Positions 44,295 to 61,776 of a stretch of DNA of 64,000 nt are shown here, one piece after another. This DNA is from Pigmentiphaga sp. NML030171 (GTDB lineage: Bacteria; Pseudomonadota; Gammaproteobacteria; Burkholderiales; Burkholderiaceae_B). The DNA lies in contig NZ_NINX01000029.1 of the NCBI RefSeq assembly GCF_002188635.1, positions 62,001-126,000 on the forward strand, read 5' to 3'. Under the pieces are notes generated by a model. It searched no databases and was not told the DNA's origin. It worked only from the letters and a program-made list of their open reading frames with translations. The position numbers and the translations under genes are program-made. The first letter of the stretch is position 1, and every line of letters starts with the position of its first letter.

Positions 44295-44780
44295 ATGACC
44301 CAATCCCCCCCCTCGCACCCTTTCGATCCCGCCGAGCAGGTGCTCTGGTCGCGCGCGGGATACCTGGTCCGCCGCCTGAACCAGATCCACTATGCGATGT
44401 TCTTCGAGGAATGCAGCAACGAGATCACCCCGGTCCAGTACGGCATCCTGACCGCCCTGTCCCTGCAGCCGGGCAGCGACCAGAAGACGATCGGCCACGA
44501 ACTCGGGCTGGACCGCACCACCACGGCCGACGTCGTCAAGCGGCTCGAACGCAAGGGCTACCTGACGCGCCGCGTGGATCCCGACGACCGCCGCTCGCGG
44601 CAATCCTTCATCACCGAGGAAGGACTGCGCGTCATGGGCCAGTTGCAGGACGGAATGACACGCGCCCAGCAGCGGCTGATCGCCCCGCTCAGCAAGAAGG
44701 ACCAGGAAACCTTCATGCGCCTGCTTTCCAAGCTGGTGCAGGCCAACAACCACTACGGCCGCGCGGCCGCCGACCTCTGA
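44295..44780 (+). CDS. picR: MarR family repressor of the pic cluster
   Basis: 161-residue MarR protein. The winged HTH is about 35-105 (ITPVQYGILTALSL ... TIGHELGLDRTTTADVVKRLERKGYLTRRVDPDDRRSRQSF given here in parts), with dimerisation helices at both ends. NicR/BpsR/PicR proteins of this type repress pyridine-carboxylate genes and are released by the hydroxylated intermediate. ATG 44295 is chosen because the earlier ATG (44247) abuts the promoter and operator; GTG 44280 is another possibility. The 3' end overlaps the convergent lysR gene by 28 bases. Confidence 0.88.
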   Translation: MTQSPPSHPFDPAEQVLWSRAGYLVRRLNQIHYAMFFEECSNEITPVQYGILTALSLQPGSDQKTIGHELGLDRTTTADVVKRLERKGYLTRRVDPDDRRSRQSFITEEGLRVMGQLQDGMTRAQQRLIAPLSKKDQETFMRLLSKLVQANNHYGRAAADL

Positions 44781-46000
44781 TCCTTTTCCCCTGATTCGTC
44801 GCGGCACACCTGGCGGATCGCCTCGATCAGCAATTGCGCCCCCGGCGACGAATGCTCCTGCGTGCGGCGCAGGATGCCCATGGAACGCTCGGTGCCCGCC
44901 AGCACCACCGGCAACTCCACCAGGATGCCCGCCCGCAGTTCGTGCGGGAACAACTGGCGCGAAGCCGCAGACAGCATGTCGGTCTCCAGCAGCAGCCCCC
45001 GGATCAGGGAGATGTCCGACGACTCCACCGCCACCTGCGGTTCCGGCAACCCATGCTGCGCCAGGCACGCGCCCAAGGCCTCGCGCGTGGGCGTGCCCTG
45101 CCGGGGCAGCACCCATGCGGTCTCCATCAGGTCGGCCAGATCCAGGGCGGCAGCCGCGGCCAGCGGATGATCGCGGCGCGCCAGCACCACCATGGGCTCG
45201 CGCATCAACTGCTCGACCACCAGCGCGCTTTCCAGCGGCTCCACCGGCAGCGCGCCCACCAGGAAATCCACGTCGCCCAGCCGCAGGCCCGCTACCAGCG
45301 TGTCCATGGGCGCCTCCAGCGTGCGCACCTGGAGGCGCGGATGCCGGGCCAGCACACTGCCGATGGCCACCGGCAACACATACGGACGGCTGAACGGCAG
45401 CGCCCCGACCACCACCTGTCCTTCGATCACGCCCTTCAGCGCCGAGATCTCGGTGCCGGCCAGGCGCAACTGCGCCAATGCCCGCTTCACATGTGCCAGC
45501 AGCAGCTCGCCGCATTCGTTCAATGCGACGCCGGCATGCGCGCGGTCGAACAGGGGCACGCCGACACTGGCCTCGAGGTCGTACAGCGCCATGCTGGCGG
45601 CCGGCTGGGAAACGCCCACCGCCGCCGCCGCCGTGCTGATGTGCTTGCGCTCGGTAAAGGCGAACAACAGTTCCAGGCGCCGCTCGTGCACGGCCAACGA
45701 AAAGAACGGCGCGGTGCGCAACCGCGGCGCCGACTCGGGGTAGCGCTCGCACAACGTGTCGCAGGCTTGCTGCAGTTCGGCGAACGCCAACTCGGTCCGT
45801 CGGTGCAGCGCCTGGCCGAAGTCGGTCAGCAGCCACTGGCGCGCGCTGCGTTCGAACAGCGCGACGCCGAACCAGCCTTCCAGCTCCTGCACCGAACGCG
45901 ACACGGCCGACTGGGCGCGGCGCAGTTCCTCGCTCGCACGGGCCAGGTTGCCGTGGCGCACGACGGCCAGGAAGGGGCGCAGGTGCTTGGTGTGGAGCAT
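44753..46000 (-). CDS. LysR-type regulator with two N-terminal winged-HTH domains
   Basis: 415-residue regulator. HTH 1 spans about 5-65 (HLRPFLAVVRHGNLARASEELRR, SAVSRSVQELEGWFG). A second complete LysR-type HTH lies at about 105-170 (RRLELLFAFTERKHISTAAAAVG, SQPAASMALYDLEASVG). Then comes one LysR substrate-binding domain (about 185-400). Standard LysR proteins are about 300 residues with one HTH. ATG 45998-46000 shares a base with the stop of the upstream isochorismatase gene. A paralogue of the same architecture is at 53399-54655. Likely regulates its own operon (3-hydroxyanthranilate dioxygenase and amidase genes) and the divergent Bug gene. Confidence 0.88.
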   Translation of the reverse strand: MLHTKHLRPFLAVVRHGNLARASEELRRAQSAVSRSVQELEGWFGVALFERSARQWLLTDFGQALHRRTELAFAELQQACDTLCERYPESAPRLRTAPFFSLAVHERRLELLFAFTERKHISTAAAAVGVSQPAASMALYDLEASVGVPLFDRAHAGVALNECGELLLAHVKRALAQLRLAGTEISALKGVIEGQVVVGALPFSRPYVLPVAIGSVLARHPRLQVRTLEAPMDTLVAGLRLGDVDFLVGALPVEPLESALVVEQLMREPMVVLARRDHPLAAAAALDLADLMETAWVLPRQGTPTREALGACLAQHGLPEPQVAVESSDISLIRGLLLETDMLSAASRQLFPHELRAGILVELPVVLAGTERSMGILRRTQEHSSPGAQLLIEAIRQVCRDESGEKDQRSAAARP

Positions 46001-46665
46001 CAAAGGGCCGAAAGGGCGTCGGCAGGGGCGTGCTTGCCGAACAAACGCAGGAGCTCGACCGAGGTCGTGACCTCGCCAAAATTCACCCGGACCGTCGATA
46101 ACGTGCCCTCGTGGCCAGCCGCGTTACCGCTGCCCACGCAATCCTCCGCCACGACGATGTGATAGCCGAGGAAGAATCCGTGCCTGAGGGTCGAATCGAC
46201 GCAGACATTGGTGGCCACGCCCGCCATCACCAGCGTCCTGATACCCCGCTCCTGCAACTGCGCGTGCAGCCCGGTCTCGTGGAAACCGCTGAACGTGTGC
46301 TTGTCCACGACGATGTCCCCCTCCCGGGGTTGAATGCGGAAGAAGTCGGCGCCCCAGGTTCCCTCCATGCAGCAGCCCTCGGCATCCCGCATGGCGACGT
46401 GGGCCTCCGCCAGGTACTTGAAATCGTAGACCGAGCGCAACCATGCGACCGCAGCCCCCGATCGCCTGGCCCCGTCCGCCAATGCGCCGATCCGGTCGGC
46501 GATGGCGGCATTCTCGTCCACCCGGATGGGATGGCGGCCGCTTTCAGCCCGGGTGCGCTGCAGGTAGCCGCCCTGGGCGCAGAAATCGTTCTGCATATCG
46601 ACGATCACTAACGCCGTGTGTCGCGGCTGCGCTTTCTCCGCCAGGGTGCGTAGGATATTGCTCAT
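46000..46665 (-). CDS. Isochorismatase family cysteine hydrolase
   Basis: 221-residue member of the isochorismatase/nicotinamidase superfamily. Triad residues: Asp in LVIVDMQNDF, Lys in VVDKHTFSGFHET and Cys in GVATNVCVDST. The cis-peptide VATN region is intact. It probably hydrolyses an amide or carbamoyl group. It lies 12 nt after the 3-hydroxyanthranilate dioxygenase gene and is directly coupled to the lysR gene. Which amide is cleaved cannot be told from sequence. Confidence 0.87.
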   Translation of the reverse strand: MSNILRTLAEKAQPRHTALVIVDMQNDFCAQGGYLQRTRAESGRHPIRVDENAAIADRIGALADGARRSGAAVAWLRSVYDFKYLAEAHVAMRDAEGCCMEGTWGADFFRIQPREGDIVVDKHTFSGFHETGLHAQLQERGIRTLVMAGVATNVCVDSTLRHGFFLGYHIVVAEDCVGSGNAAGHEGTLSTVRVNFGEVTTSVELLRLFGKHAPADALSAL

Positions 46666-46677
46666 GGCCCCCCCCCT

Positions 46678-47211
46678 TCAACGGTCCGGCATGATGGTGC
46701 CGCACTTCTTGCAGGTGCGGAAATCGAGCGAACCCCAGAAATTGTCGTAGGCCCGCGATACCGGATCGGTACCGTAATCACTGACGATGAAGCGTTCCTC
46801 GTGCAGCAGATTGTCGCAAGAAGGGCAGAACCAATGGAAGCGGTCCACTTCGCCAGGCCGGCGCTTGCGCTCGACCACGAGCTGGAACGCATCGGGCGGG
46901 AAACGCGGCGAATGCGGCACCATGGGCGGCTGGTAAAGACAATGTCCTTCGGGAACCACCGCGACTTTCTCCACCCCCTCGGGCGTACGATAGTGCAGGT
47001 GCAGGTCCCCCTTCAGCGAATACTGCATCTCGTGGCTGGGATTCAGGTGGAACTCGCTGCGGTATTCACGGCCGCGCGCAATGAAGCACAGGCAGTCGTC
47101 CTCCTGCCACAACGGATAGGTCCGCCGCTCCTCGTTGTGCCGCAAGTGCTCCATGATTTCCTGCAAATCGATTTGCGGCATGTGCAATTGCAGGCTGGGA
47201 AATAGTTTCAT
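46678..47211 (-). CDS. nbaC: 3-hydroxyanthranilate 3,4-dioxygenase
   Basis: 177-residue cupin dioxygenase. Iron ligands H55, E61 and H100 and substrate-binding R103 and E114 are in the expected positions. The C-terminal rubredoxin-like iron site has C129/C132 (CPSC) and C167/C170 (CKKC), typical of the bacterial and yeast enzyme. The reaction opens 3-hydroxyanthranilate to 2-amino-3-carboxymuconate semialdehyde, which cyclises to quinolinate or, after decarboxylation, to picolinate. It is first in an operon with an isochorismatase-fold hydrolase and a twin-HTH LysR gene, not with other kynurenine genes, so the physiological substrate may be an analogue. Confidence 0.92.
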   Translation of the reverse strand: MKLFPSLQLHMPQIDLQEIMEHLRHNEERRTYPLWQEDDCLCFIARGREYRSEFHLNPSHEMQYSLKGDLHLHYRTPEGVEKVAVVPEGHCLYQPPMVPHSPRFPPDAFQLVVERKRRPGEVDRFHWFCPSCDNLLHEERFIVSDYGTDPVSRAYDNFWGSLDFRTCKKCGTIMPDR

Positions 47212-47273
47212 CGCTATGTCCTGGTAGTGAATCCCCCCATTCTCGGCTCCCCGCGGGGCTGGCGCCAGCCGGC

Positions 47274-47358
47274 AATGCTTCTGCCTGGGGCGAAAAAACT
47301 TATGCCCGCCCGCCGGCCATCAAAATGCTTCTGCCGGTCCCGAAAGCGCTTATGCCCC
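47274..47358. repeat. Two 35-bp direct-repeat regulatory units, 50 bp apart
   Basis: AATGCTTCTGCC begins at 47274 and 47324; CGAAA follows at 47291 and 47341; CTTATGCCC follows at 47299 and 47349. Within each unit the half-sites GCTTCTGCC and (G/A)CTTATGCC repeat in the same orientation 21 bp apart. The units lie between the divergent 3-hydroxyanthranilate dioxygenase operon and the Bug receptor gene. ATGCTT-N18-CTTAT recurs at 53329-53357. Likely operator for the twin-HTH LysR regulator (inference). Confidence 0.7.
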
Positions 47359-47441
47359 ATCCCCTCCGGCCTGCGGCAATGGCACAGTGGCGGGGCCACC
47401 CGCTGGTGGGGTGGCTTGCTCAACCTTCGGGAATCCGGACC

Positions 47442-48422
47442 ATGAAAACGCCAATCATCCATTCCGTGCTCGCGGCGATCACGCTGGCCCTGTGCGGCGC
47501 CGCGCCGACGCACGCCCAGGACTACCCCGCCAAACCCGTGCGGGTGGTCTCCACCTTCCCCGTGGGCAGCGGCCCCGACGCCGCGCTGCGGCTGGTGGCC
47601 GACCGGCTGTCGCAGAAATGGGGACAGCCCGTCATGGTCGAGAACAAGCCGGGCGGCAACGGCTTCATCGCCATCGACGCCGCCAAGCGCAGTCCCGCCG
47701 ACGGCTACACCCTGCTCCAGATGGACAACGCGCAGACCAGCGCCCATCCCTACCTGTTCAAGAAACTGCCCTACGACCTGATGCGCGACTTCGAGCCCAT
47801 CACGCCCATGCTGCGCAACTACTTCTTCGTAGTGGTACCGGTGGACAGCCCCTTCCGCGGCACCGGCGACCTGCTCCAGGCGGCGCGCGCCAAACCCGGC
47901 TCGGTCACCTACGGTTCGTGGTTCGTCGGCAGCCCCGGCCACATCGGCGGCGCCATGCTGGAACAGGGAGCGGGCGTGGAAATGATGCACGTCCCGTACA
48001 AGGACATGGGACAACTCTACGCCGCGGTGGCCAACAAGGAACTGGCCTGGGCCTTCGGCAGCGGCGGCAGCGCCGGCCCCCTGCAGCGCGCCGGCAAGGT
48101 CCGCTACCTGGCCGTCTCGGCGCCCCGGCGGCTGGCGGGCTTCCCGGACGTCCCCACCATCGCGGAATCCGGCGGACCGGCGGACTTCGACCTGGCGGGA
48201 TCGGTCGCGCTGCTGGCGCCCAAGGGCACGCCCGCGGCGGTCGCCGACAAGATCCAGCGCGACGTGGCGCAGGTATTGCGCGACCCGGAGGTCCTCAAGC
48301 GCTACGACGCGATGTTCTACGAGCCCTACGTGCTGGAACGCGCCGAGTACGTGAAGGAGCTGGCCGACGAGACCCGGCGGTTCGGGCAGGTGCTCAAGCG
48401 CTTGAATATCGCGCTGGATTGA
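47442..48422 (+). CDS. Bug-type tripartite tricarboxylate transporter substrate-binding protein
   Basis: 326-residue TctC-family receptor. A signal peptide (MKTPIIHSVLAAITLALCGAA, cleavage after THA near residue 24) precedes KPVRVVSTFPVGSGPDAALRL; other motifs are ENKPGGNG, HVPYKDMG and FPDVPTIAESG. Start ATG 47442 is used because the signal peptide begins there; an upstream in-frame extension covers the repeated regulatory units. It is divergent from the 3-hydroxyanthranilate dioxygenase operon and convergent with an isochorismatase-fold gene. An orphan receptor with no membrane subunits nearby. Confidence 0.92.
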   Translation: MKTPIIHSVLAAITLALCGAAPTHAQDYPAKPVRVVSTFPVGSGPDAALRLVADRLSQKWGQPVMVENKPGGNGFIAIDAAKRSPADGYTLLQMDNAQTSAHPYLFKKLPYDLMRDFEPITPMLRNYFFVVVPVDSPFRGTGDLLQAARAKPGSVTYGSWFVGSPGHIGGAMLEQGAGVEMMHVPYKDMGQLYAAVANKELAWAFGSGGSAGPLQRAGKVRYLAVSAPRRLAGFPDVPTIAESGGPADFDLAGSVALLAPKGTPAAVADKIQRDVAQVLRDPEVLKRYDAMFYEPYVLERAEYVKELADETRRFGQVLKRLNIALD

Positions 48423-48431
48423 AACGCCCGG

Positions 48432-49142
48432 TTAGGCCGACGCGCCGAAGTGCCCCAGGATGTCCGCCGTATCCAGCACGTCGGCATACTTCGCATGCAT
48501 GTCCAGCAGGCTCATCGCATGGCTGGATTGCAGGCGGTCGAAGCAGGCGTCGGCAGCCACGGCGATGCGGTAGTTGGCGCTGAAGCCATCCACCACGGTG
48601 GCACGCACGCAGCCCGAGGTGCTGCCGCCCGCCACCACCAGCGAATCCGCACCCAGCAGGGTCAGGTAGGACTGCAGCGGCGTCGAGAAGAACGCCGACG
48701 GCTTCTGCTTGCCGATGACGAGGTCGCTGGGCTGCGGAGCGATTTCCTCGACGATCTCGTCATGATGCCGATCGGATTGGGACACCGGAGCCTCTTGCGG
48801 CCGCGATCGTGCATGCTTCCACAGCCACGAACCCATGTCCCATTTGTCGTCCCGGTACGCGCCCCGCGTGTAGATGACGGGCCGCTGCTGCGCGCGAAAG
48901 GCGGCCAGCAGTTCGCGGATGCGGTCGATGGCGTCCCAGCTTGCCTCGCCGCAAGAGTTGGGCCAGCGGCGAACGGAGTCGGTGATGGGTTCGCGCCGGT
49001 CGCCGCAAAAACCATAGGTGGCGTCGACGATCACCAGGGCCGGGCACGCGCCGAATCCCATGCGGGCGCCGTAGCCGGACAGCTCGATGATCTCACGGTC
49101 GCGCGGCGTCAGGTACGAATACAGCGATTCGAGCGTGGCCAT
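48432..49142 (-). CDS. Isochorismatase / N-carbamoylsarcosine amidase-like cysteine hydrolase
   Basis: 236-residue member of the same superfamily as the two genes at 43573 and 46000. Triad: Asp in VIVDATYGF, Lys in IGKQKPSAFFST and Cys in STSGCVRATVVDG. The insertion around WPNSCGEASWDAIDRI and the longer N-terminus are seen in N-carbamoylsarcosine-amidase-like proteins. Start ATG 49140-49142 has GAGGAGG about 8 nt upstream. It is the last gene of the damaged ABC-transporter/aldolase operon but is itself intact. Confidence 0.86.
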   Translation of the reverse strand: MATLESLYSYLTPRDREIIELSGYGARMGFGACPALVIVDATYGFCGDRREPITDSVRRWPNSCGEASWDAIDRIRELLAAFRAQQRPVIYTRGAYRDDKWDMGSWLWKHARSRPQEAPVSQSDRHHDEIVEEIAPQPSDLVIGKQKPSAFFSTPLQSYLTLLGADSLVVAGGSTSGCVRATVVDGFSANYRIAVAADACFDRLQSSHAMSLLDMHAKYADVLDTADILGHFGASA

Positions 49143-49155
49143 GTCCAGGGCCTCC

Positions 49156-49880
49156 TCAGGCGAACAGCGCGGCATCGCCGCGGGCCTTTTCCTGCCACGC
49201 GAGCTTGCGGACGAAGTAGTTCCAGGAATGCTCGATGTGGACGGGCGTCATGATCTGTTCGCGCCGGCGCCGCCGCACGGGCGGCATGGGGAAGGTCGCT
49301 TCGGCGCGCATCTGCGAACCCAGCACGTGGATGCGCGCGGCGCGCTCCAGGAAGACCCCCACGCAGACGGCATGGGCGATGGACGTGCCGCAAAAGGTGA
49401 CGCCGTGATTGGCCATCAGCACGGCGAAATGCGGTCCCAGGGTGCGGGCCAGCGCGGCGCCCTCTTCCTCGGTCTTGAGCAGCGCGGCCTCGTCCCGGTG
49501 GCAGGGCAGTTCGTCGAAGTAGTCGGCATCCAGCGTGAACGGCGCCAGCGCGGTGCCGAACGACGACAGGATGCTGGCGTGGAAGGGATGGGTATGGGCG
49601 ACGACGTTGACGTCGGGCCGCGCCTTCAGGATCTCGGAATGGATGGGCACTCAGAATGGCGCCCCCCTTCCCCTTCCAGCTTGGCGCCATCGTGGCCGAC
49701 CAGCACGAAGTCGGCGGCGGACAGGATCTCGCCCAGGCCGCGCGCGTTGCGCTTGAGCCAGAAGCCGCGCCCTTGCGGATCGCGCAGCGACAGGTGGCCC
49801 AGGGTCATGTCGCCATGGCCTTCCATTTCCAGGACGCGGCAGGCCGTCGCCAGTTGTTCCAGTTGTTCGTCGATAGACAT
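49156..49880 (-). pseudogene. Class II aldolase/adducin family protein, frameshifted
   Basis: The N-terminal part (49880 to about 49649: MSIDEQLEQLATACRVLEMEGHGDMT, HDGAKLEGEG, HSE) and the C-terminal part (PIHSEILKARPDVNVVAHTHPFHASIL onward to 49156) are in different frames. The family reads HSEWPIHxEILK across the junction; here TGG has lost one G near 49648, and the total of 725 bases is one short of 242 codons. The zinc ligands HTHP and a later HGVTFCG histidine are in the downstream part. Unless this is a sequencing error the gene is inactive. It once belonged to the transporter operon and would have cleaved or dehydrated a sugar- or hydroxy-acid. Confidence 0.85.
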
Positions 49881-49890
49881 CGTGGGAGCC

Positions 49891-50691
49891 TCAATGGGAA
49901 GGACGGGAACTCCGGGCCGCGCCGTCGGGCTCCCAGAAGATGATCCTGCCGCGCACGGCGACGAGCAGACGGTCGAGGGTGAAGCCGATCAGCGCCACGG
50001 CGATCACGCCGGCGTAGGACTCGGCATACATGAAGGAAGCCGACGCGTAGGCGATGTAGTAGCCCAGCCCGGTGCTGTCGCCGATCATTTCGGTGATGAT
50101 CACGACCACCATGGACAGGGGCAGCGCGACCCGTATGCCCGACATGATGGCGGGCAGCGCCGCCGGCAGTAGCACGCGCAGGAAGATGCGCACGGACCCG
50201 GCCCCCATGTTGCGGGCGCTCCAGACCAGGCGCGGCGCCACGGCGCGGATGCCGAAATAGGTGTTGACCGCGATGGGGAAGGTGCACTCCAGCGCGATCA
50301 GCGCGATCTTCGACGGCGAGCCGAAGCCCAGCAGCAGGATGAAGACCGGGTACAACGCGATCTTGGGAACCGGGTAGCCGAACGAGAAGATGGGTTCCAC
50401 CATCCATTCGAACCAGCGGCTGCGGGCCATGAGCACCCCCAGCAGTACGCCGATGACGATGGCCAGGCCGAAGCCGCTCAGGGCGCGCGAGAACGAGATG
50501 GAGGCGTGATAGACCAGGTCGCCGTTGGCCAGCCCTTCCACGAAGGCCCGGCCCACCTTCACGATGGAAGGCATCAGCCGCGGCGACACCCATCCCGAAC
50601 GGGACAACAGCTCCCAGGCCACGGCCAGGACCGACAGCGGATACAGCGGCGCCATGGCTTGCCGGGCGAAAGCGCGCAGACGCTCAACCAT
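49891..50691 (-). CDS. ABC transporter permease (SsuC/TauC family)
   Basis: 266-residue permease with about six membrane helices. The EAA loop of the family is recognisable (VWSARNMGAGSVRIFLRVLLPAALP in part: ARNMGAG, PAALPAIMSGIRVALP). It overlaps the second permease gene by 8 nt. Two SsuC-like permeases in one operon imply a heterodimeric channel. The reading frame is intact although neighbouring genes are damaged. Confidence 0.9.
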   Translation of the reverse strand: MVERLRAFARQAMAPLYPLSVLAVAWELLSRSGWVSPRLMPSIVKVGRAFVEGLANGDLVYHASISFSRALSGFGLAIVIGVLLGVLMARSRWFEWMVEPIFSFGYPVPKIALYPVFILLLGFGSPSKIALIALECTFPIAVNTYFGIRAVAPRLVWSARNMGAGSVRIFLRVLLPAALPAIMSGIRVALPLSMVVVIITEMIGDSTGLGYYIAYASASFMYAESYAGVIAVALIGFTLDRLLVAVRGRIIFWEPDGAARSSRPSH

Positions 50692-51487
50692 CGCGGGCCT
50701 CCCCGGGATACTTGTCCGCCAGCAGGCGGCGGCGGATGGCCAGCAGGATGCGGTCGCTGGCGAAGCCCATCAGGCCGATGGCCAGGATGGCCGTGTACAT
50801 CCAGTCATAGCGCATGGCCTCCTCGGCGCGCACGACCATGTCGCCCAGGCCGTCGTGCGACCCCACCATCTCGGCGGCGAACAGCACGATGAACGAAAGC
50901 GCGAGCCCGGAGCGCAGGCCGGTGAAGATCTGCGGCAGCGCGGCCGGGAAGATGACGCGCCTGAAGATGTAGGCAGGTCCCGCCCCCATGTTGCGCGCCG
51001 CCCAGATCAGGGATACGGGGGTGGCGCGCGCGCCGTACAAGGTGTTGATGAAAGTCGGAAAGAAGACCGCCAACGTGATGAGGGCGATTTTCGAGACATC
51101 GCCGAAGCCCAGCCAGGTGATGATGACCGGCAGCAGCGCCACCTTGGGCACCGGATACAGCGTGGAGACGAGCGGATCGAAGAAGGCGCGCGCCTGCTGC
51201 CACACCGCGCTCAGGAGTCCGATCGCAACCCCCAGCGCGGCCCCCATGAAAAAGCCGCTGTAGGAGCGCACGCCGGACGCCATCGCGTCGCGGATGAGCT
51301 CGCCGCTTGCCAGCAGTTCCCAGGTCGTCGCGGCGATGTCGGTCGGCGCCACGACGTAGCGGGGCGCGCCCGGCTGGCCTGCCGCCAGTTGCATGGCAAC
51401 CAGCAGCGCCACCGGCAGGGACCAGCCCGCGAGCCAGCGCAGCGCGCGGTTCGAACCGCCCGCCGCGGTGGAGCGTATCGCGCTCAT
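50684..51487 (-). CDS. ABC transporter permease (SsuC/TauC family)
   Basis: 267-residue permease. The YPVPKVALLPVIITWLGFGDVSKIA motif (seen as YPVPKVALLP and WLGFGDVSKIA) and the EAA region WAARNMGAGPAYIFRRVIFPAALPQI are typical. Start ATG 51485-51487 overlaps the ATPase stop (ATGA). Intact frame, paralogous to the gene at 49891-50691. Confidence 0.9.
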   Translation of the reverse strand: MSAIRSTAAGGSNRALRWLAGWSLPVALLVAMQLAAGQPGAPRYVVAPTDIAATTWELLASGELIRDAMASGVRSYSGFFMGAALGVAIGLLSAVWQQARAFFDPLVSTLYPVPKVALLPVIITWLGFGDVSKIALITLAVFFPTFINTLYGARATPVSLIWAARNMGAGPAYIFRRVIFPAALPQIFTGLRSGLALSFIVLFAAEMVGSHDGLGDMVVRAEEAMRYDWMYTAILAIGLMGFASDRILLAIRRRLLADKYPGEARDG

Positions 51488-52279
51488 GAGCCTTCCCGGG
51501 CGCGCAGGACCTCGTCGCGCAGCATGTCCCAGATCCTGGCGTGGTAGTCCATGAACTCGGGCGACTTGCGGATGGAGGCGTCGCGCGGGCGCGGCAGCTC
51601 GACGCGCAGGTCGGCCTTGATGCGTCCCGGGCGCGCCGTGAAGACGATGATCCGGTCGCTCAGGTAGATGGCCTCTTCGATGTCGTGCGTGACGAACAGC
51701 ACGGTGCGGCGGTCCTGCTGCCAGATGTCGGTCAGCTCTTCCTGCATGAGTTCGCGCGTCTGCGCGTCCAGGGCGCCGAACGGCTCGTCCATCAGCAGCA
51801 TCTTGGGTTCGTAGGCCAGCGTGCGCGCCAGGGCCACGCGCTGCCGCATGCCGCCCGACAGTTCGCCCGGATACGCGTTCTCGAACCTGGCGAGCCCGAC
51901 CATGGCGATGTACTTGCGCGCGATCTCCAGGCGCCGCGCCTTGGGCAGGCCCTGCACTTCCAGCGACCAGGCCACGTTGCCCAGCACCGTGCGCCAGGGA
52001 AAGAGCGCATAGTCCTGGAACAGCATGCCCCGGTCGGGCCCCGGCTCCGAGACCGGGCGCCCGGCCAGGCTGATCGTGCCGCTGGTGCGCGGCTCGAAGC
52101 CGCCCACCATGTGCAGGAAGGTGCTCTTGCCGCAGCCCGACGGCCCGACGATACTGACGAATTCGCCCTCGGCGATGGACAGGTCGAAATCCTCCAGCGC
52201 GGTCACGGCCTAGCCGTTGCGCAGGAAGCGCTTGCCGACGCCCCCGGGCCTGCAGGTAGTGGGTCGCGTCGGCGTTCAT
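51484..52279 (-). pseudogene. ABC transporter ATPase (SsuB/TauB family), frameshift and nonsense near the N-terminus
   Basis: The original start is ATG 52277-52279, overlapping the receptor stop. It reads MNADATHYLQARG in frame; then one extra base in the C5 run at 52241-52245 shifts the frame away from the expected VGKRFLRNG, and in that restored frame an in-frame TAG (52212-52210) interrupts just before AVTALEDF. The total of 796 bases is one more than 265 codons. The remainder is a good ATPase (GPSGCGKST, LSGGMRQR, LLMDEPFGALD) and could be translated from GTG 52206, giving a protein lacking about 25 residues, including the first beta strands that hold the A-loop aromatic residue. Probably inactive. 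Confidence 0.82.
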
Positions 52280-53250
52280 TTCGGCAGATAGCTCATATCC
52301 ACGACCTTGGCGGGATCCAGGTCGTCCATGTAGCCGAAGTCCTTCAGTTCCTTCACCATCCTGCGCATGGAATCCATGTCGACCTTGCCGTCCAGCGGGT
52401 GCAGGTACTTGCGCATGCCCAGCGACACGTCCAACGGAATGTTGACGAACTTCGCATCGATCAGTTGCTGGTGGCTTTCGCGCGGACGGTTGACGTAGAA
52501 GTCGGTAGCCTTGACCAGATCGGCCAGGAACGCGCGCAGCGCGGCGGGATGCTTGGCGGCGAACTCCTCCTTGACCAGCAGCAGCATCAGGTCTTCCTGC
52601 TGCCCGATGCCGTCGGTGGACGTGAATACCGTGCGCATGCCGCCACGCTTTTCCTCGAAGGCGGCGAAAGGCTGCGGAAAGGCGCCGATGTCCAGCTTGC
52701 CGGCCCGCACCGCCTCGCCCTGGCTGGGGAAGGGAAGAGCCACCCACTTGACGTCGCGCTGCGGATTCAGGCCATGCTTCTTGAGCGCCAGCCGGGCCCA
52801 GATCTCCGCCGACGAGCGGGCGCCATTGATCCCGATGGTCTTGCCCTTGAGGTCGGCGATCGTCTTGATGGGCGAACCGTCGAGCACCATGTACCGGGTG
52901 GCGAAGCCTTGCGCGCCGCCCTAGCGGGACAGCGACGCGACGATCTTGAACTTGATGCCCTGGGCCGCGGCCATCATGACGCTGTGCGCCGATCCGGTGG
53001 CGACGTCCAGCTCGCCAGCTTCGAATGCTTGAAAACGTTTATCGGTGCCTCTGAAAAGCGTGTATTCGAGCTTGTAGTCCCGGCCCTGCCCGGGCGTGAC
53101 GGCCGGCGAAGCCTTCATGGTCCAGAGAGGCTCCTCGGCCGAGGAGCCATGTCCCACCCTGATGGTCACGACTTCCGCGCGGCTGGCTGCCGAGCCCAGG
53201 AAACACAAGGATAAAGCGGCACAGCAGAGCGTTCTCACCAAGATGTTCAT
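52276..53250 (-). pseudogene. ABC transporter substrate-binding protein (NMT1/TauA-like), nonsense mutation
   Basis: A single frame of 325 codons is interrupted by an in-frame TAG at 52923-52921. The first part has a signal peptide (MNILVRTLCCAALSLCFLG, SRA cleavage) and receptor lobe 1 up to IKFKIVASLSR; the second continues GGAQGFATRYMVLDG and ends in DPAKVVDMSYLPK. The length is normal for the family if the stop is ignored. Ribosome binding site AGGGAGGA precedes ATG 53248-53250. It is the first gene of the operon and is divergent from the second twin-HTH LysR gene. Confidence 0.85.
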
Positions 53251-53328
53251 GACGCGGTCCTCCCTAGGATAGTCATTGCTCCGTCATGCCGGATTGTAGG
53301 ATCTTGCCGCTGCGGAAAGGAGCAAGTT

Positions 53329-53360
53329 ATGCTTGCGTGGACAGCAATTTTTCTTATCGG
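53329..53360. promoter_or_regulatory. LysR-type regulatory site resembling the 47274-47358 units
   Basis: ATGCTT (53329-53334), 18 bases, then CTTAT (53353-53357): the same words and spacing as both units at 47274-47358. Half-sites GCTTGCGTG and TCTTATCGG start 21 bp apart. The site lies between the damaged transporter operon and its divergent twin-HTH LysR gene. Confidence 0.5.
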
Positions 53361-53398
53361 ACGGATTTCCCCGCCCAGGAATCGAGCGCTACCCGGCC

Positions 53399-54655
53399 AT
53401 GCAAGACAAGAACCATATGCGGCACCTGCGGGCGCTGATCGCGGTGGTGGAGGAAGGCAGCATTGCCCGCGCCGCGCAGCGGTTGCTGCGCACGCCGTCG
53501 GCGGTGGCCAGCTCCATCCGACAGCTCGAGACGAGCTTCGATGCCACGCTGTTCGAGCGCCAGTCAGCAGGCATGGCGCCTACGCCGTTCGGACAGGCGG
53601 CCTACCGGCGCGCGTGCCGCATCGAGGCCGAATTGCAGCTGGCCGCCGCGGAACTCGCGCCCTACCGGGTATCCGTCAATGCCCCGCTGTTCGCCATGCT
53701 GGTCGGGGAGCGTCAATTGACCGCGCTGGTCCGTTTGCGCGAGATGGGCCACATGCCCAGCGTGGCGGCGGTGATGGGCTTGACGCAACCCGCGGTCAGC
53801 GCCCTGCTCAGGCAGGCAGAAGCCTCGCTCAAGCTGCGCCTGTTCCGCCGCGCCGCCAAGGGCATGGCCGTCACCGAAGCGGGCGAGCTGCTGCTGTTCC
53901 GCGTCAGGCGGGTGCTGGCCGAACTGCGGCACCTGGAGGCCGACATCGCTCAGCAGCGCGGCGAAATGGCCGGCCGCGTCATGTTCGCGGCATTGCCTTC
54001 CATGCGCACGCGGGTGCTTCCCCAAGCCATCGCGGCATTGGTCGGCAAGCATCCGAATGTCCAGATCTCCATGGTGGACGCACCCTTCGAGATCCTGTTC
54101 GCGGGCGTGCACTCCGGCGAGATCGATTTCATCCTGACCGGCCTCAATGCCAACTACTCGCATCGGGACTTCCTGATTCGCGTGATCGGCCGCGACCGCC
54201 TGGTCGTGGTCGCCCGCGCGGGCCATCCGCTGTGCGCGCGGGAACGCGTCGAGATTGCCGACCTGGTGCGCTACCCCTGGGTGCTGCGGGATCGCGGCGC
54301 GCCGACGCGCGAGTTGCTGAACGACTTGTTCTGGCAGCTGGGGATCGAAGCGCCGCACGTGGCGGTGCAGGCGGGAGACCTCGGCTTGTTGCGGGGCCTC
54401 CTGCAGCATAGCGATGTGGTATCGGCGGTCTCGCCCGAATACCTGAGCTACGAGATTGCCTCGGGCGCCGTCAAGGTGCTGGACGTCGAGCTTCCCCATA
54501 CCGGCCGCGAGATCGGCTTCATCCTGCGGCGCGATGCGCAGCCTTCCCTCTTGTGCGAGAAGCTGATGCAGCACATCGAGGCAGCGACGGCGGGCACGCT
54601 GGCACCCGCCGCCCCCTCGCCGACCGGAGCCAGGACGGCTGTCACCCCAGGTTGA
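53399..54655 (+). CDS. LysR-type regulator with two N-terminal winged-HTH domains (paralogue)
   Basis: 418-residue regulator collinear with the protein at 44753-46000. HTH 1 is about 8-68 (HLRALIAVVEEGSIARAAQRL, PSAVASSIRQLETSF) and HTH 2 about 103-170 (RQLTALVRLREMGHMPSVAAVMG, TQPAVSALLRQAEASLKLRLF), then one effector domain. Shared blocks with the paralogue include PTRE.L and the final ...GDLGLLRGLLQHSD / SDISLIRGLLLETD region. ATG 53399 is the start, because earlier in-frame codons run through the putative operator. It is divergent from the damaged ABC/aldolase operon; its 3' end overlaps the convergent Bug gene by 14 bases. Confidence 0.88.
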   Translation: MQDKNHMRHLRALIAVVEEGSIARAAQRLLRTPSAVASSIRQLETSFDATLFERQSAGMAPTPFGQAAYRRACRIEAELQLAAAELAPYRVSVNAPLFAMLVGERQLTALVRLREMGHMPSVAAVMGLTQPAVSALLRQAEASLKLRLFRRAAKGMAVTEAGELLLFRVRRVLAELRHLEADIAQQRGEMAGRVMFAALPSMRTRVLPQAIAALVGKHPNVQISMVDAPFEILFAGVHSGEIDFILTGLNANYSHRDFLIRVIGRDRLVVVARAGHPLCARERVEIADLVRYPWVLRDRGAPTRELLNDLFWQLGIEAPHVAVQAGDLGLLRGLLQHSDVVSAVSPEYLSYEIASGAVKVLDVELPHTGREIGFILRRDAQPSLLCEKLMQHIEAATAGTLAPAAPSPTGARTAVTPG

Positions 54656-55628
54656 CGCCGCTGCGTTTGACCACCTCCCCCCAATAGCGGTATTCGCTGC
54701 GCACGTACTCGTTGGCTTCCTGCGGGCTTTGGCTGCTGCGCGGCAACGCGCCTATGGTGCGCAGGCGGTCCTTGAAATCCTGGGTCTGCACGATCTGGCT
54801 CAGGGCCTCGAAGTTGCGGTCGACCAGCTTCTTCGGCACGCCGGCGGGATACATGAGCATCAACCAGGTCACCGCGGTGAACTTGGGAATGCCTTGCTCC
54901 ATCAGCGTGGGGGCGGCCAGCACGCCATCCAGGCGCTGCGCGCTGCCCGCGCCCAGCACACGCAGCTTGCCAGATTCGACCAACGGCTTGGTGGCCGCCG
55001 CGGTCTCCAGGGCGATCGACACCGTTCCCGCCATGACGTCGGTCAGTCCACGCGAACTGCCCTGGTACGGCACGTGAACGATGTCCACGCCCGCATAGCG
55101 CTTGAACTCCTCCATCGCCAGGTGCGACACGGTGCCGTTGCCCGACGACGCATTGGTCAGCTTGCCGGGGTTCGCCTTCGCATAGGCGATGAGTTCGGCG
55201 ACGTTCCTGGCGGGCACGGCGGGATTGGCCACCAGGACGAACGGCAGATCGCCGACCAGGCCGATGGCCTCGAAGTCCTTGGTGGAATCGTAGGCGACGC
55301 TCTTGTACATGTGCGGATTGGTCGCCACTGCCGACATGTGGGCCAGCATCATCACGCTGCCGTCGCTGGGGGCCTTGGCGAGATAGCCCAGGCCCAGGCT
55401 TCCTCCCTGGCCCGGCTTGTTCTCCACGATGTAGTTGTCGCCGGTCGCGGCCGCGAGCTTCTCGGCCAGCATGCGCGCCACGATGTCGGTGGCCTGGCCC
55501 GGCGGGAAGCCCACCAGTATCCTTACCGTCTTGCCGGTCGATGGCGCCTGCGCGTAGGCGTCGCTCAAAAGCACCGATGCCGCGCTGGCCAGCAGAAACC
55601 TGCGGCGCCCTGCTTGCGTAGTCTCCAT
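54642..55628 (-). CDS. Bug-type tripartite tricarboxylate transporter substrate-binding protein
   Basis: 328-residue TctC-family receptor. The leader METTQAGRRRFLLASAASVLL has a Tat-like RRxFL motif and a cleavage site at YAQA. Family motifs: KTVRILVGFPPGQATDIVAR, ENKPGQGGSLG, HVPYQGSSRGL. It is the last gene of the second molybdenum-hydroxylase operon, 25 nt after the CoxG-like gene, so its ligand is probably the substrate of that pathway. Confidence 0.92.
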   Translation of the reverse strand: METTQAGRRRFLLASAASVLLSDAYAQAPSTGKTVRILVGFPPGQATDIVARMLAEKLAAATGDNYIVENKPGQGGSLGLGYLAKAPSDGSVMMLAHMSAVATNPHMYKSVAYDSTKDFEAIGLVGDLPFVLVANPAVPARNVAELIAYAKANPGKLTNASSGNGTVSHLAMEEFKRYAGVDIVHVPYQGSSRGLTDVMAGTVSIALETAAATKPLVESGKLRVLGAGSAQRLDGVLAAPTLMEQGIPKFTAVTWLMLMYPAGVPKKLVDRNFEALSQIVQTQDFKDRLRTIGALPRSSQSPQEANEYVRSEYRYWGEVVKRSGVNLG

Positions 55629-55653
55629 GGATGTTCCCTCATTCTTGTTTCGA

Positions 55654-56319
55654 CTATGAGATGACCACCGCCCCGGCCAGCGTTGCCGCCACGCCAAGGG
55701 CGAAGGCCACGATCAGCCACCAGCCGGGAACGCGCGTCGCCCCATCCGGCTCGGCCCGCGGCGGCACGGGCGCTGCCCGGACCGGGTCCGCCGTACTCGC
55801 GGGTCCGGCATCGGCGGTGGCCCGGCCCGCCGGGCTGCGCTTCCCGGGAGCACCGCTTCCGGCCGGCGCGGCCGGCTCCTCCGGTGCGAACTGCTTGCGG
55901 AAGGCCTTGAAGAAATCGTCGGAAATCTTCCTGGCCACGCTGTCGATCAGGCGCGCGCCCACTTGCGCCAGCTTCCCGCCGACCTGCGCCTGCGCCGCGT
56001 AGGTCAGCTCCGTACCGGCGCCGGCCTCCTTCAGATCGACCGAGGCCGATCCCTTGCCGAACCCCATCGCGCCACCCTGCCCCTCGAATACCATGACGCA
56101 GGAAGCGGGAGGCACGGCTTCGGTCAGGCGCAGCGAGCCGTTGAAACGCGGCCGGAGCGGCCCGATGGCGGCGGTGATCACGATGCGAAACTCATCGGGG
56201 CCCGCCTGCTCGACCGACTCGCATCCCGGAAGGCAGCGCTTGAGCGTGCCGGGATCGTTCAAGGCCTTCCAGACGTCGGCGCGGGGAGCGGCGATGACTT
56301 GGGTACCGGTGATTTCCAT
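55654..56319 (-). CDS. CoxG-like SRPBCC protein with C-terminal membrane anchor
   Basis: 221-residue CoxG-family protein. The SRPBCC domain covers about 1-145 (MEITGTQVIAAPRADVWKALNDP, LKRCLPGCESVEQ). A Pro/Ala/Gly linker follows, and a single C-terminal hydrophobic helix (WWLIVAFALGVAATLAGAVV, about 200-220) should anchor it in the membrane. In carboxydotrophs CoxG recruits CO dehydrogenase to the membrane; here the visible anchor makes the same job likely for the molybdenum hydroxylase of this operon. It is 13 nt from the crotonase gene. Confidence 0.87.
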   Translation of the reverse strand: MEITGTQVIAAPRADVWKALNDPGTLKRCLPGCESVEQAGPDEFRIVITAAIGPLRPRFNGSLRLTEAVPPASCVMVFEGQGGAMGFGKGSASVDLKEAGAGTELTYAAQAQVGGKLAQVGARLIDSVARKISDDFFKAFRKQFAPEEPAAPAGSGAPGKRSPAGRATADAGPASTADPVRAAPVPPRAEPDGATRVPGWWLIVAFALGVAATLAGAVVIS

Positions 56320-56332
56320 GAACGCCTCGATG

Positions 56333-57067
56333 TCAGCCGTGCTTGCGCTTCATGGCCGCCGCCGTATTGACCATGGAGTGAAGGGCCCGCGCGTACTCGA
56401 TGGCGCCAAGCTCGTCCATGCGGGGCGCGACGTGCAGATACTCCTTCAGCCCCAGGATGGCCGGCCGGGGACGGCTCGTCAGCACTTCGCAGAAGCGGGC
56501 GAGTTCGGCGTCGAGTTTGTCGGCGGGAACGACGGTGCTGACCAGTCCGTAGGCCATGGCGCGATGGGCGTCGATGAAATCGGCGGAATAGGCCATCCAG
56601 AGGATGGCGTTGCGATTGACGCGGTCGTACAGCGCCGACATGACCATGGTCGGCATCACGTTGTGCGCGATCTCGGGGATATTGAAGGTCGCGGTATCGC
56701 TGGCGAACGAAACGTCGCAAAGCGCCGCGATGGCGGTGCCGAACCCCATCGCCCGGCCTTCGATGGCGGCAATGACCGGCACCTGCGCGTTGCGTATGGC
56801 CTTGTAGCTGTTGAAGATCGCGTCGTACTCCGGGCGGCGCGCATAGGCCTCGGGAGACGGCGCGGGGGATCCCGGGTCGCGGGCGCGCCCGGTGCAGAAG
56901 TCCGGCCCCGCGCTGCGCAGCACGACGGCATCCGAGGTGTGATGCGCGTTGAGAATGGCATCGGCGAACGCCACTGCCATCGCGTCCGTCACTCCGTTGT
57001 CCTGCGGGCGGTTGAAGGTAATGCGAAGAATACGGCCGTCCTGCTCTATCGAGAGTTGTTCGCTCAT
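56333..57067 (-). CDS. Enoyl-CoA hydratase/isomerase family protein
   Basis: 244-residue crotonase-fold protein. The oxyanion-hole regions are GPDFCTGRA and AIEGRAMGFGT. The second catalytic glutamate is retained (NIPEIAHN), but the first one, normally in GGG.E at the MGFGTAIA position, is replaced by Ala. That points to an isomerase, hydrolase or decarboxylase-like crotonase rather than a standard hydratase. It follows the alpha/beta hydrolase gene in the operon. The lack of a CoA ligase gene in the operon leaves the CoA-ester source open. Confidence 0.84.
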   Translation of the reverse strand: MSEQLSIEQDGRILRITFNRPQDNGVTDAMAVAFADAILNAHHTSDAVVLRSAGPDFCTGRARDPGSPAPSPEAYARRPEYDAIFNSYKAIRNAQVPVIAAIEGRAMGFGTAIAALCDVSFASDTATFNIPEIAHNVMPTMVMSALYDRVNRNAILWMAYSADFIDAHRAMAYGLVSTVVPADKLDAELARFCEVLTSRPRPAILGLKEYLHVAPRMDELGAIEYARALHSMVNTAAAMKRKHG

Positions 57068-57115
57068 GTACTGCCTCCTGAGGTGGAAAGGAAATTGGTC
57101 GACCGCCGGGTGGGC

Positions 57116-57958
57116 TCAATGGCCGATGCGGACGCGATCGAGATGGCGCAACAATGCGTCCTGGAATGCGGCGGGCTGGTCGATATTGGGCAAATGGCCG
57201 GCGTCGGGAATCACCTCGATTCCCGCCCCGTGGATAAGCGTCTGCAAATGCCGCATGGCATCGGGCAGGGGGCCGTCGTTGGCCCCCACCAGCAGCGTCG
57301 TCGGCACCGCGATGCCGCCGACATCGCCCAGATAGTCCAGCCCCTGGATCGCCTGTGCGCACCCGACGAACCCGGCGACCGAGGTGGCGGCCGCCTGACG
57401 CCGGAAACGCCCGGCAATTTCGGGATGCGCGCCCACGAAGGACCGGCCGAACCAGCGCTCGATCGTGGAATCCGCGAGCGCGGCGGTGCCCCTCTCGCGC
57501 GCAACGGCGATGCGCTCGGCCCAGACCAGTTGCAGGTCCGGCGGCGTATCGGCCCGTGCGTCGCACAGGCAAAGGCTCGACAGCCGGCCTGCATGCCGGA
57601 TGCCCAGGCCGAATCCGCTCATGCCACCCAGCGAGAGCCCCACATAATGGACGCGCTCGATGCCCAGTGCGTCGAGCACCGCGATCGTATCGTCCGCCAG
57701 CTCGTCCATGGTGCAAGGTCCGGCAGGCGGCTGGGTATCCCCGTGCCCGCGCGTATCGGCCCGGATCACCCGGTATCCCCGCGCCGCCAGCAAGGCTGCC
57801 TCGCTGTCCCACATCATGCTGGACGACAGGATGGAGTGGGTCATGAATACGGGTGCTCCCGCCGGGTCGCCCTCGACCAGAACGGCGATCTCGCCCGCCG
57901 GACCGGCCACCCGCAGCGTTTCGCGCCGCGCCTTCGCGGCGTTGTCCGACTTTGCCAT
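57116..57958 (-). CDS. Alpha/beta hydrolase (3-oxoadipate enol-lactonase-like)
   Basis: 280-residue alpha/beta hydrolase of the PcaD/ring-cleavage hydrolase type. The nucleophile is in GLSLGGMSG and the catalytic histidine in PDAGHLPNIDQP near residue 255; the oxyanion region is MTHSILSSSMMWDS. ATG 57956-57958 shares one base with the stop of the large-subunit gene, so the two are translationally coupled. It may hydrolyse a lactone or amide formed after ring hydroxylation. Confidence 0.86.
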   Translation of the reverse strand: MAKSDNAAKARRETLRVAGPAGEIAVLVEGDPAGAPVFMTHSILSSSMMWDSEAALLAARGYRVIRADTRGHGDTQPPAGPCTMDELADDTIAVLDALGIERVHYVGLSLGGMSGFGLGIRHAGRLSSLCLCDARADTPPDLQLVWAERIAVARERGTAALADSTIERWFGRSFVGAHPEIAGRFRRQAAATSVAGFVGCAQAIQGLDYLGDVGGIAVPTTLLVGANDGPLPDAMRHLQTLIHGAGIEVIPDAGHLPNIDQPAAFQDALLRHLDRVRIGH

Positions 57959-60399: not shown

Positions 60400-60883
60400 G
60401 CGACGACTCCTGTGCCGTCGCATGCTGGACGGCGTCCACGATCTGTTGATAACCGGTGCACCGGCACAGGTTGCCGCTGATGGCCTCGCGGATCTGCGCC
60501 TCGTCCGGACGGGGGTGGCGCGCCACGAGCGCGTGGCACGCGACCAGCATGCCTGGCGTGCAATAACCGCACTGCAGCGCATGCTTTTCGCAGAAGGCGT
60601 CCTGGATCGCGGACAGCCGCCCCCGTTCCGGCGCCAGCCCCTCCACGGTCGTTACCGAAAGGCCGTCGGCCTGGACCGCGAACATGCAGCAGGACCTGAC
60701 GGGTTCTCCGTCCAGCAGGACCGAACACGCGCCGCAGACACCGTGCTCACAGCCGATATGGGTACCGGTCAGCTTCAGCGTGTCGCGCAGGAAGTCCACC
60801 AGGGTGGTGCGCGGCTCGACCTGGGCCTGCCGCACGACGCCATTCACATTGATGGAAATGTTCATGAGTCGGGAAAATGCCAT
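60392..60883 (-). CDS. Molybdenum hydroxylase [2Fe-2S] subunit (CoxS-like), second system
   Basis: 163-residue iron-sulfur subunit. Cluster motifs [25 protein letters not shown] and [12 protein letters not shown] are intact. ATG 60881-60883 lies 2 nt after the FAD-subunit stop and has GGAG about 9 nt upstream; ATG 60865 is an alternative closer to the family start. Confidence 0.92.
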   Translation of the reverse strand: MAFSRLMNISINVNGVVRQAQVEPRTTLVDFLRDTLKLTGTHIGCEHGVCGACSVLLDGEPVRSCCMFAVQADGLSVTTVEGLAPERGRLSAIQDAFCEKHALQCGYCTPGMLVACHALVARHPRPDEAQIREAISGNLCRCTGYQQIVDAVQHATAQESSHD

Positions 60884-60885
60884 GG

Positions 60886-61776
60886 CTACACGCTCCGTAC
60901 CGAAGACTGGGCCGATTGCGCGGCCCGGCGCAGGACGCGTACCGCCAGGACGGCCGCCAGGTGGCGCCGGTATTCGGCGGTCGCGTGCAGGTCGCTGCCT
61001 GGCTCGCATGCCGCGGCCGCATCCTCGGCCACGTCACGCAGCAGATCATCGTCCAGCCGCTGCCCTTCCAGGCGCTGCGCCAGCTCGGGAAAACTGCGGG
61101 GAACGCCATCCACGCCGCCGAGGCCGAACGCGGCGCGCCGGCAGACGCCCGACGCATCGACACGGACCTGCGCCGCAGCCGAAGCCATGGCGAAGTCTCC
61201 GTGCCGTATCGCGATCTCGTCGAATGCACAACCGGTGCCGCGCGCGTCCCACACGGGCCACTCGATGGCGGTCAGGCACTCCGTGTCGCGCGTGTCGGTA
61301 AACATGGGCCCCAGGAAAAACTCGCCGGCGGCGACACTGCGTTCGCCTTCGTCCTGGCTTGTCAGGCGCAGTCTCGCGTCCAGCACGAGGGCGGCCAGCG
61401 GCAGCTCGGCGGACGGGTCGGCATGCACCAGGCTGCCGCCCACGGTGCCACGGTTGCGCGTCTGGCCGTGCCCCACCCAGCGCAACGCGGCGGCGACCAA
61501 GGGGATGTGCGCATGCAGCGAGACCTCGTCCTCCAGGGTGCGCTGGCGCACCACGGCGCCGGTCACCACGGCAGTGTCCGAAACGTCCAGCGACTGCAGG
61601 GCGGACACCCGGTGAATGTCCACCAGCAGCGCGGGGCGCGCCAGGCGCATGGCCATCATCGGCACCAGGCTCTGGCCTCCGGCCAGCAGCTTGGCCTCGT
61701 ACCCATGCTGGTGCAGGAGTTCGAGCGCGTGGTCCAGGCCCTCGGCACGCACATAGTCGAAAGGAGCGGCTTTCAC
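60886..61776 (-). CDS. Molybdenum hydroxylase FAD-binding subunit (CoxM-like), second system
   Basis: 296-residue FAD subunit. LAGGQSLVPMMAMR and TVGGSLVHADPSAELP are the FAD motifs. The start is GTG 61774-61776 (KAAPFDYVRAEGLD follows), preceded by AAGGAGC in the minus orientation is not seen, so the start rests on family alignment. First gene of the seven-gene minus-strand operon that runs to 54642 and divergent from a GcvA-like LysR gene. Confidence 0.9.
   Translation of the reverse strand: MKAAPFDYVRAEGLDHALELLHQHGYEAKLLAGGQSLVPMMAMRLARPALLVDIHRVSALQSLDVSDTAVVTGAVVRQRTLEDEVSLHAHIPLVAAALRWVGHGQTRNRGTVGGSLVHADPSAELPLAALVLDARLRLTSQDEGERSVAAGEFFLGPMFTDTRDTECLTAIEWPVWDARGTGCAFDEIAIRHGDFAMASAAAQVRVDASGVCRRAAFGLGGVDGVPRSFPELAQRLEGQRLDDDLLRDVAEDAAAACEPGSDLHATAEYRRHLAAVLAVRVLRRAAQSAQSSVRSV

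Follow-up and report, generated by a model that had tools for sequence, protein, structure and literature searches.

Known systems and the Pigmentiphaga locus

Binding sites of AraC/XylS regulators are direct repeats about 21 bp apart, and the effector domains of LysR-type regulators pair through a two-fold axis. Here, we describe predicted operators made of two same-direction half-sites 21 bp apart, an unusual layout for the LysR family, in a 64,000 nucleotide (nt) stretch of Pigmentiphaga sp. NML030171 (hereafter the window, meaning the whole stretch analyzed; own genome 5.86 Mb). They lie near two genes for LysR-type regulators with two helix-turn-helix (HTH) domains each (twin-HTH): P0001 (44753..46000, minus strand, ATG at 46000), the last gene of a cupin-isochorismatase-lysR run, and P0002 (53399..54655, plus strand), which adjoins an ATP-binding cassette (ABC) transport cluster and is divergent from the ABC transport operon. 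AraC/XylS proteins likewise carry two HTH motifs per chain, as stated in a section of PMC5882156, and the sites of BenR are described in part of PMC6449761 as repeated sequences. However, Pfam models (E up to 0.001) detected only HTH_1, in two stretches, and LysR_substrate in P0001 and P0002, and no AraC-type HTH domain, making the comparison an analogy only.

GalR (Pseudomonas putida KT2440 and Pseudomonas sp. NGC7) is a LysR-type activator of gallate catabolism, for which passages of PMC9942251 predict a recognition binding site (RBS) and an activation binding site (ABS), point out that a 7-base word of the RBS recurs in the ABS, and describe the binding sites as uncharacterized at that time. 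A section of PMC12314914 likewise predicts or cites an RBS and an ABS for GalR. The passages of PMC9942251 differ from the case presented here in mentioning neither two HTHs nor a direct repeat, and PcaQ (TIGR02424) differs in that its 300-position model has room for one HTH only. According to portions of PMC12016517, BhbR1 of Pigmentiphaga kullae H8 (302 amino acids) protects 54 bp from −22 to −75 and is, as an ordinary LysR activator with a site of two sub-sites upstream of −35, comparable in arrangement; its RBS is a dyad (ATA-N9-TAT), whereas the sub-sites of P0001 and P0002 are direct copies and the proteins have an extra HTH. Among the matches listed in our literature search, from whose scope subscription journals mostly fell outside, no title or abstract concerned DNA recognition by twin-HTH LysR proteins.

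Three pattern matches represent two operator classes

An earlier note on this DNA had proposed a single direct-repeat operator shared by both LysR loci. Its pattern, ATGCTT-N18-CTTAT, occurs exactly at 47275-47303, 47325-47353 and 53329-53357, always on the plus strand and with 21 bp from CTT to CTT, and permitting one mismatch on both strands of the window yielded nothing beyond these three matches. The mean count in 100 dinucleotide shuffles was 0.18, with no shuffle reaching three or more, and the own genome held four exact matches versus none for a reversed-pattern control; the three matches are therefore real. The fourth own-genome match is at C1:177867 (L083:7868), between livJ and livH.

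The words and their spacing are common to both loci, but the three window sites are two related operator classes rather than one operator. The 47-kb units share a longer motif, AAAATGCTTCTGCC-N~6-CGAAANNRCTTATGCC, obtained by genus comparison and searched as ATGCTT-N10-CNAAA-N3-CTTATG. In the own genome, this motif has three perfect matches, namely both 47-kb units and the liv site, and none with one or two mismatches. The 53329 site has three mismatches to it, which is background level (nine own-genome matches at ≤3 mismatches versus nine in the reversed control), and hence represents a separate class. A matrix of P0001-type sites (see below) scored at most 6.6 on the upstream regions of six P0002 orthologs of the genus, short of the 8.5 that marks the 99% level in random windows, and a single operator for both regulators was ruled out because the matrix misses the P0002 upstream region. 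As predicted sites, the operators of both classes are real and conserved. They are probably activator operators of two paralogous twin-HTH LysR regulators, each reading its own sites.

Predicted P0001-type operators within and beyond the genus

The predicted operator 1 (47271..47306, plus strand; half-sites 47271-47285 and 47291-47306) is nearer the cupin gene, and the predicted operator 2 (47321..47356, plus strand; half-sites 47321-47335 and 47341-47356), 50 bp downstream, is nearer tctC; in both, the half-sites are 21 bp apart. Across 11 Pigmentiphaga genomes (family Alcaligenaceae), a P0001 ortholog (≥74% identity) was present in eight, all of which had at least one zero-mismatch long-motif site beside the cupin/tctC genes and a second site there with zero to two mismatches. 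The three genomes without P0001 held no exact copy, their best being one 1-mismatch match, and gave four matches at one to two mismatches versus three for the reversed control. Six genomes have P0001-type sites at liv operons as well, and G004 has one in front of a further tctC. The site at C1:177867 points to its liv operon as a remote member of a predicted P0001 regulon; an apparent amidase gene follows this operon.

We used a matrix built from 27 sites in six groups, all anchored on CTTATG or CTTATA, and scanned 47 twin-HTH loci (L182 left out; Pigmentiphaga P0001 loci excluded, their sites being upstream of the cupin gene). Sites scoring 22.7–29.3 were found upstream of all four P0001 relatives of cluster C and of L169, none of which took part in building the matrix, compared with maxima of 6.4 in 26 single-HTH LysR upstream regions and 11.1 in 400 random windows. 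Cluster C comprises four other genera, with 50–55% identity to P0001 and divergent from the same cupin and isochorismatase genes; identity is 41% for L169. A further hit at L174 (18.1) was discounted, as it falls in the coding sequence of a neighboring gene. The matrix was thus positive at only 5 of the 47 loci and absent at most others, including the locus of the third twin-HTH regulator in the own genome, and the expectation that the motif would recur beside other twin-HTH LysRs, by which the earlier note had proposed to judge itself, did not hold.

In Ramlibacter terrae (Comamonadaceae, another family), a P0001 relative (80% identity in the best segment, called in two pieces) is accompanied by a P0001-type site in reverse orientation. 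The entire cupin-isochorismatase-twin-HTH LysR set is present there with its operator (L151:5725-9250), suggesting horizontal transfer of the gene set and operator. Within Pigmentiphaga, inserted genes part the two 47-kb units in G005 (~7 kb) and G004 (~4.7 kb), one unit staying on the cupin side and the other with tctC. Given these split pairs and the reversed Ramlibacter site, the units appear to be independent and tolerated in either orientation.

Another regulator could bind the 47-kb sites, such as the MarR protein at 44295-44780, whose gene is linked in G000, G002, G003, G005 and G007 and has a 26% relative near L169. We consider this very unlikely, since no ortholog was matched in the fetched stretches of G004, G008 and G009, nor within ~1.5 kb of the four cluster-C LysRs, although the sites are present in all of these.

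The probable P0002-type operator

The predicted P0002-type operator is at 53322..53359 (plus strand; half-sites 53322-53338 and 53343-53359, 21 bp apart). Orthologs of P0002 in two genera have CAAGTTATKCTTG...CAATTTTTCTTAT conserved in their upstream regions, and CAAGTTATKCTTG...CAGCAATTTTTCTTATCGG is kept upstream of all six Pigmentiphaga orthologs (88–100% identity), the first word being ATGCTT in G000 and G008 and ATTCTT in the other four. In two P0002 orthologs of another genus (L156 and L157; 74–75% identity), the block reads CCAAGTTATGCTT...CCAAATTTTTCTTAT or differs from it by one base; it forms a 13-base direct repeat whose copies, 21 bp apart, agree at 10 positions. ATGCTT recurs at the same spacing in L156, and with a one-base change in L157. 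Similar blocks in the same frame were seen for two Variovorax proteins (43% identity) and for paralogs in G008 and G009. Plain chance was dropped as an explanation of 53329 because the block is conserved in P0002 orthologs, and the site is probably the operator of LysR P0002. Each class tracks orthologs of its neighboring LysR across both species and genera, and the link between operator and twin-HTH LysR that the earlier note had drawn stands to that extent, although it is not general.

Chance might still operate at another level, if the 47-kb and 53-kb loci merely shared two short words while each was a real but unrelated operator. Such a coincidence would agree with the failure of the long 47-kb motif to reach 53329, with the replacement of ATGCTT by ATTCTT in four of six orthologs, and with a P0002 direct repeat that leans largely on the CTT words (see below). 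It is improbable, however, in view of three matches against 0.18 expected, the recurrence of both words, equally spaced, in front of a P0002 ortholog of another genus (L156; L157 is one base off), and 21 as the best offset in both classes.

Direct-repeat layout of the half-sites

The layout was assessed by comparing each matrix with itself at all offsets, against 2,000 column permutations. For the P0001 class (27 sites), the direct offset of 21 scored 13.5 and the next best 3.3, and none of the 2,000 shuffles matched this at any offset. Restricting the set to 20 sites from orthologous intergenic regions only (liv and ruv dropped) gave 11.8 versus 3.8 (0/2,000), and masking the CTT columns of these 20 sites still gave 7.5 versus 3.4 (1/2,000). 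In cluster C and L169 alone (five sites), 21 was again the best offset (0/2,000); with CTT masked, 21 of 2,000 shuffles did as well over all offsets and none at the preset offset of 21.

Several results weigh against reading these sites as direct-repeat operators of the neighboring regulators. The best inverted arrangement of the P0001 class scored 8.35 (P 0.02; 27 sites), and a whole-site inverted signal was also obtained in a further test (P 0.003 and 0.011); because of this weaker inverted signal, direct repetition is not the sole symmetry of P0001-type sites. Selection also accounts for part of the signal, as the liv and ruv sites were found via a pattern with CTT in both halves and all 27 sites share a CTT-containing anchor. 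For the P0002 class (12 sequences in four groups), 21 was the best offset, but 99 of 2,000 permutations equaled it over all offsets and 6 of 2,000 at the preset offset, and with CTT masked these counts rose to 948 and 71, respectively. The P0002-class repeat thus rests largely on the CTT words. G009 holds P0001 and liv genes and yet has no liv site. Moreover, liv orthologs of ≥95% identity were found only in P0001-bearing genomes (a 61% relative is present in G006), and the liv locus therefore gives no regulator-free control. Taken with these points, a direct-repeat layout at 21 bp is well supported for the predicted P0001-class operators and moderately supported for the P0002 class, in line with the earlier proposal of same-direction half-sites at a fixed distance.

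Internal symmetry of the half-sites bears on how they may be bound, ordinary LysR operators having interrupted dyad boxes of the T-N11-A kind. In the P0001 class, an internal dyad was significant in half-site 1 (P 0.012; 0/1,000 in cluster C and L169) but not in half-site 2 (P 0.40), nor was one significant in either P0002 half-site (P 0.09 and 0.27). The dyad in half-site 1 would suit an ordinary LysR operator, in which degenerate dimer boxes serve as RBS and ABS two helical turns apart and are occupied by a tetramer with one HTH per chain, the second HTH being irrelevant to the layout. We give this explanation a little less than an even chance. Pseudomonas GalR operators are predicted as RBS and ABS with a common 7-base word in passages of PMC9942251, and the predicted positions of the Pigmentiphaga sites match those of LysR activators. 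On the other hand, three of the four half-sites are without a significant dyad, the halves match each other better as direct than as inverted copies, and both HTHs look intact. The same-direction layout from which the earlier note had argued for a fit to two HTHs was observed, but a 21-bp tandem fits a LysR tetramer on RBS and ABS as well.

Distribution of the layout among twin-HTH and single-HTH regulators

Twin-HTH LysRs are not uncommon here: matches (E up to 1e-75) were found in 13 of 61 genomes sampled from the family of the window, and plasmids of genera ranging from Burkholderia to Pantoea also carry relatives. Seven GalR-like regulators on gammaproteobacterial plasmids (annotated LysR proteins of 399–412 amino acids, the one from P. 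oryzihabitans matching LysR models in two stretches) resemble the P0001 and P0002 classes in that 21 is the best direct offset of their upstream block. P values were 0.01 and 0.006 for the preset offset of 21 (P21) and a weak 0.18 and 0.13 over all offsets, with offset 22 close behind. Six of these genes are divergent from an annotated galB and one from a PIG-L-type hydrolase gene in the same place; their words and targets are unlike those of P0001 and P0002, and the comparison covers these seven proteins.

Other twin-HTH LysRs do not share this layout. In front of the gene for the third such regulator in the own genome lies a block that is strongly conserved and has no 21-bp repeat (best direct offset 14 or 19), and cluster A and Caballeronia likewise have conserved blocks without one; a general twin-HTH operator was rejected on account of these three. 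Clusters B and D are little informative, as none of their blocks is well conserved (information 22 and 21 versus 32–52 elsewhere), and in the L114-type pair alone 21 was the best offset but with P 0.10 for the preset and 0.91 for all offsets. The highly conserved block upstream of the third regulator (L084, C1:302346) is GCTGCCATAATGCCGATAAAAAAATAAGATGGCATTTG, with TGCCAT...ATGGCA inverted by eye, and is probably the operator of this regulator, with a different layout.

As a control, we compared twin-HTH sets with single-HTH LysRs using an automatic block finder (80 genes, part of the full list; 68 in 10 ortholog sets of at least three, 12 dropped). Offset 21 ranked best in four of 10 twin-HTH sets (P0002, GalR, the P0001 cupin side, and Paraburkholderia, the last of which looks coding by eye) and in three of 10 single-HTH sets (S3, S8 and S9; P21 0.124, 0.010 and 0.052), with scores of 10.9, 10.2, 7.1 and 6.1 versus 2.0, 6.3 and 6.6. 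In cluster C, the finder passed over the operator in favor of a different block that seems to be coding. With four of 10 against three of 10, rank alone does not separate twin from single. The single-HTH sets favor the ordinary RBS and ABS arrangement, one of them with a P21 of 0.010; against it, two of these three blocks, including that one, look coding by eye, where 21 is a codon multiple, and the remaining block has a P21 of only 0.052. Hence, some twin-HTH LysRs have the 21-bp layout, which may or may not depend on their second HTH.

The two regulators and possible modes of binding

TIGR02424 (PcaQ) was the best NCBIfam match of P0001 (219.5 bits) and P0002 (177.4), both under the curated cut-off of 303.8, and also of a GalR-like protein (210) and a cluster-C protein (212.8), its best stretch spanning the second HTH and the effector domain. 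A predicted structure model of P0001, used for secondary structure alone (mean predicted local distance difference test [pLDDT] 68.7, predicted template modeling score [pTM] 0.60), has two winged HTHs, each then followed by a 27-residue helix (61-87 and 163-189). Within classes, identities of the recognition helices (HTH-A/HTH-B) were 0.69/0.77 for P0001, 0.54/0.65 for P0002 and 0.78/0.83 for GalR, and only the P0002 HTH-A helix falls below its whole domain (0.54 versus 0.59). Arginine is found at P0001 position 36 (HTH-A) in 22 of 29 rows and in none of the 29 at the matching position of HTH-B. Such diverged helices fit two HTHs that read an asymmetric half-site, and equally one HTH with a changed role. 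The two-HTH region was matched by 39 PDB sequences, whose best stretches span one HTH each; the 5xxp_A match is given as query 4-174 yet covers just 69 chain residues.

These features invite comparison with AraC/XylS proteins, with the two different HTHs of one chain reading an asymmetric half-site and two chains arranged head to tail at 21 bp. This mode of binding is conceivable but rather doubtful. It would account for direct repetition of the halves and for half-sites without a significant dyad (half-site 2 of the P0001 class and those of P0002), and it is in keeping with two complete winged-HTH modules predicted with their own long helices and with recognition helices that have consistently diverged (arginine in 22/29 versus 0/29). 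However, the layout is absent in other twin-HTH LysRs, half-site 1 of the P0001 class has its internal dyad, in the P0002 class the recognition helix of HTH-A shows no higher conservation than the remainder of that domain, and confidence in the model is moderate. The two-fold pairing of effector domains also favors inverted half-sites unless the linkers are flexible. An evolutionary version of the idea, in which a subset of twin-HTH LysRs left the dyad operator, its diverged HTHs reading an asymmetric half-site and its chains stacking head to tail, and so converged on AraC/XylS logic with LysR parts, is offered tentatively and seems on the whole unlikely. If the layout does depend on the second HTH, it would illustrate how duplication of the reading head altered the geometry in which one very large regulator family reads DNA.

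Returning to the reading of two paralogous regulators with their own operators, P0001 would read both 47-kb operators, one for the cupin-isochorismatase-lysR operon and one for tctC, as well as a third at the remote liv transporter operon, while the 53-kb operator would be read by P0002 and serve the ABC transport operon divergent from the P0002 gene. In each predicted operator, two same-direction half-sites of about 14–16 bp would be offset by two helical turns (21 bp) and occupy roughly −36 to −75 relative to the promoter, where a regulator dimer or tetramer might lie on one DNA face and contact RNA polymerase once a ligand is bound. Words, spacing, direct-repeat statistics and the association between each class and its regulator in different species were computed directly; from them we infer the neighboring LysR as binder, activation instead of repression, promoter positions, oligomeric state and a ligand. 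The result is a set of testable predicted operators for two twin-HTH LysRs, with natural variants in the form of a split pair, a reversed site and a missing site.

Neighboring genes and predicted promoters

The predicted target of operator 1 is a 3-hydroxyanthranilate dioxygenase-like cupin gene (46678..47211, minus strand; Pfam 3-HAO), followed by an isochorismatase-family hydrolase gene (46000..46665, minus strand) that is conserved with the cupin and P0001-type LysR genes. Operator 2 is predicted to act on a gene for a TctC-type solute receptor (47442..48422, plus strand; Pfam TctC). For the P0002 operator, the predicted target is the gene of an ABC solute-binding protein (52276..53250, minus strand; two pieces, 52276-52890 and 52921-53250), the function of which was taken from genome context and the neighbors of the model. 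No gallate genes were seen among the direct P0001 neighbors (isochorismatase, 3-HAO-like cupin, MarR and TctC), a statement that covers part of the window genes, and when the 47-kb region was searched against plasmid DNA, matches were confined to the tctC part of the query.

By eye, a −10-like GAGAAT (bottom strand 47244-47239) is present for the cupin operon and TACAAT (bottom strand 53298-53293) for the ABC operon. The former is kept in eight Pigmentiphaga cupin-side regions and was not seen in Ramlibacter; the latter is kept in six Pigmentiphaga P0002 regions and was not seen in the other genus. Based on these by-eye positions, the operators would be at about −36 to −75, as for activators. 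No clear −10 was found by eye for tctC, and a sigma-54 reading of the conserved TGGCACAGT near tctC was rejected by eye because of unsuitable spacing.

The ABC cluster below the P0002 operator looks broken (49156-49880, 51484-52206 and 52276-53250): the aldolase-like and solute-binding genes are each in two pieces and the ATPase is shortened; the related genes of other Pigmentiphaga genomes are intact. Either decay or assembly errors could be responsible. Proteins encoded at about 53300-60900 are 98–100% identical to those of G008 (L080), compared with ~90–97% for those at 46.0-50.7 kb, and a recent exchange between species is possible.

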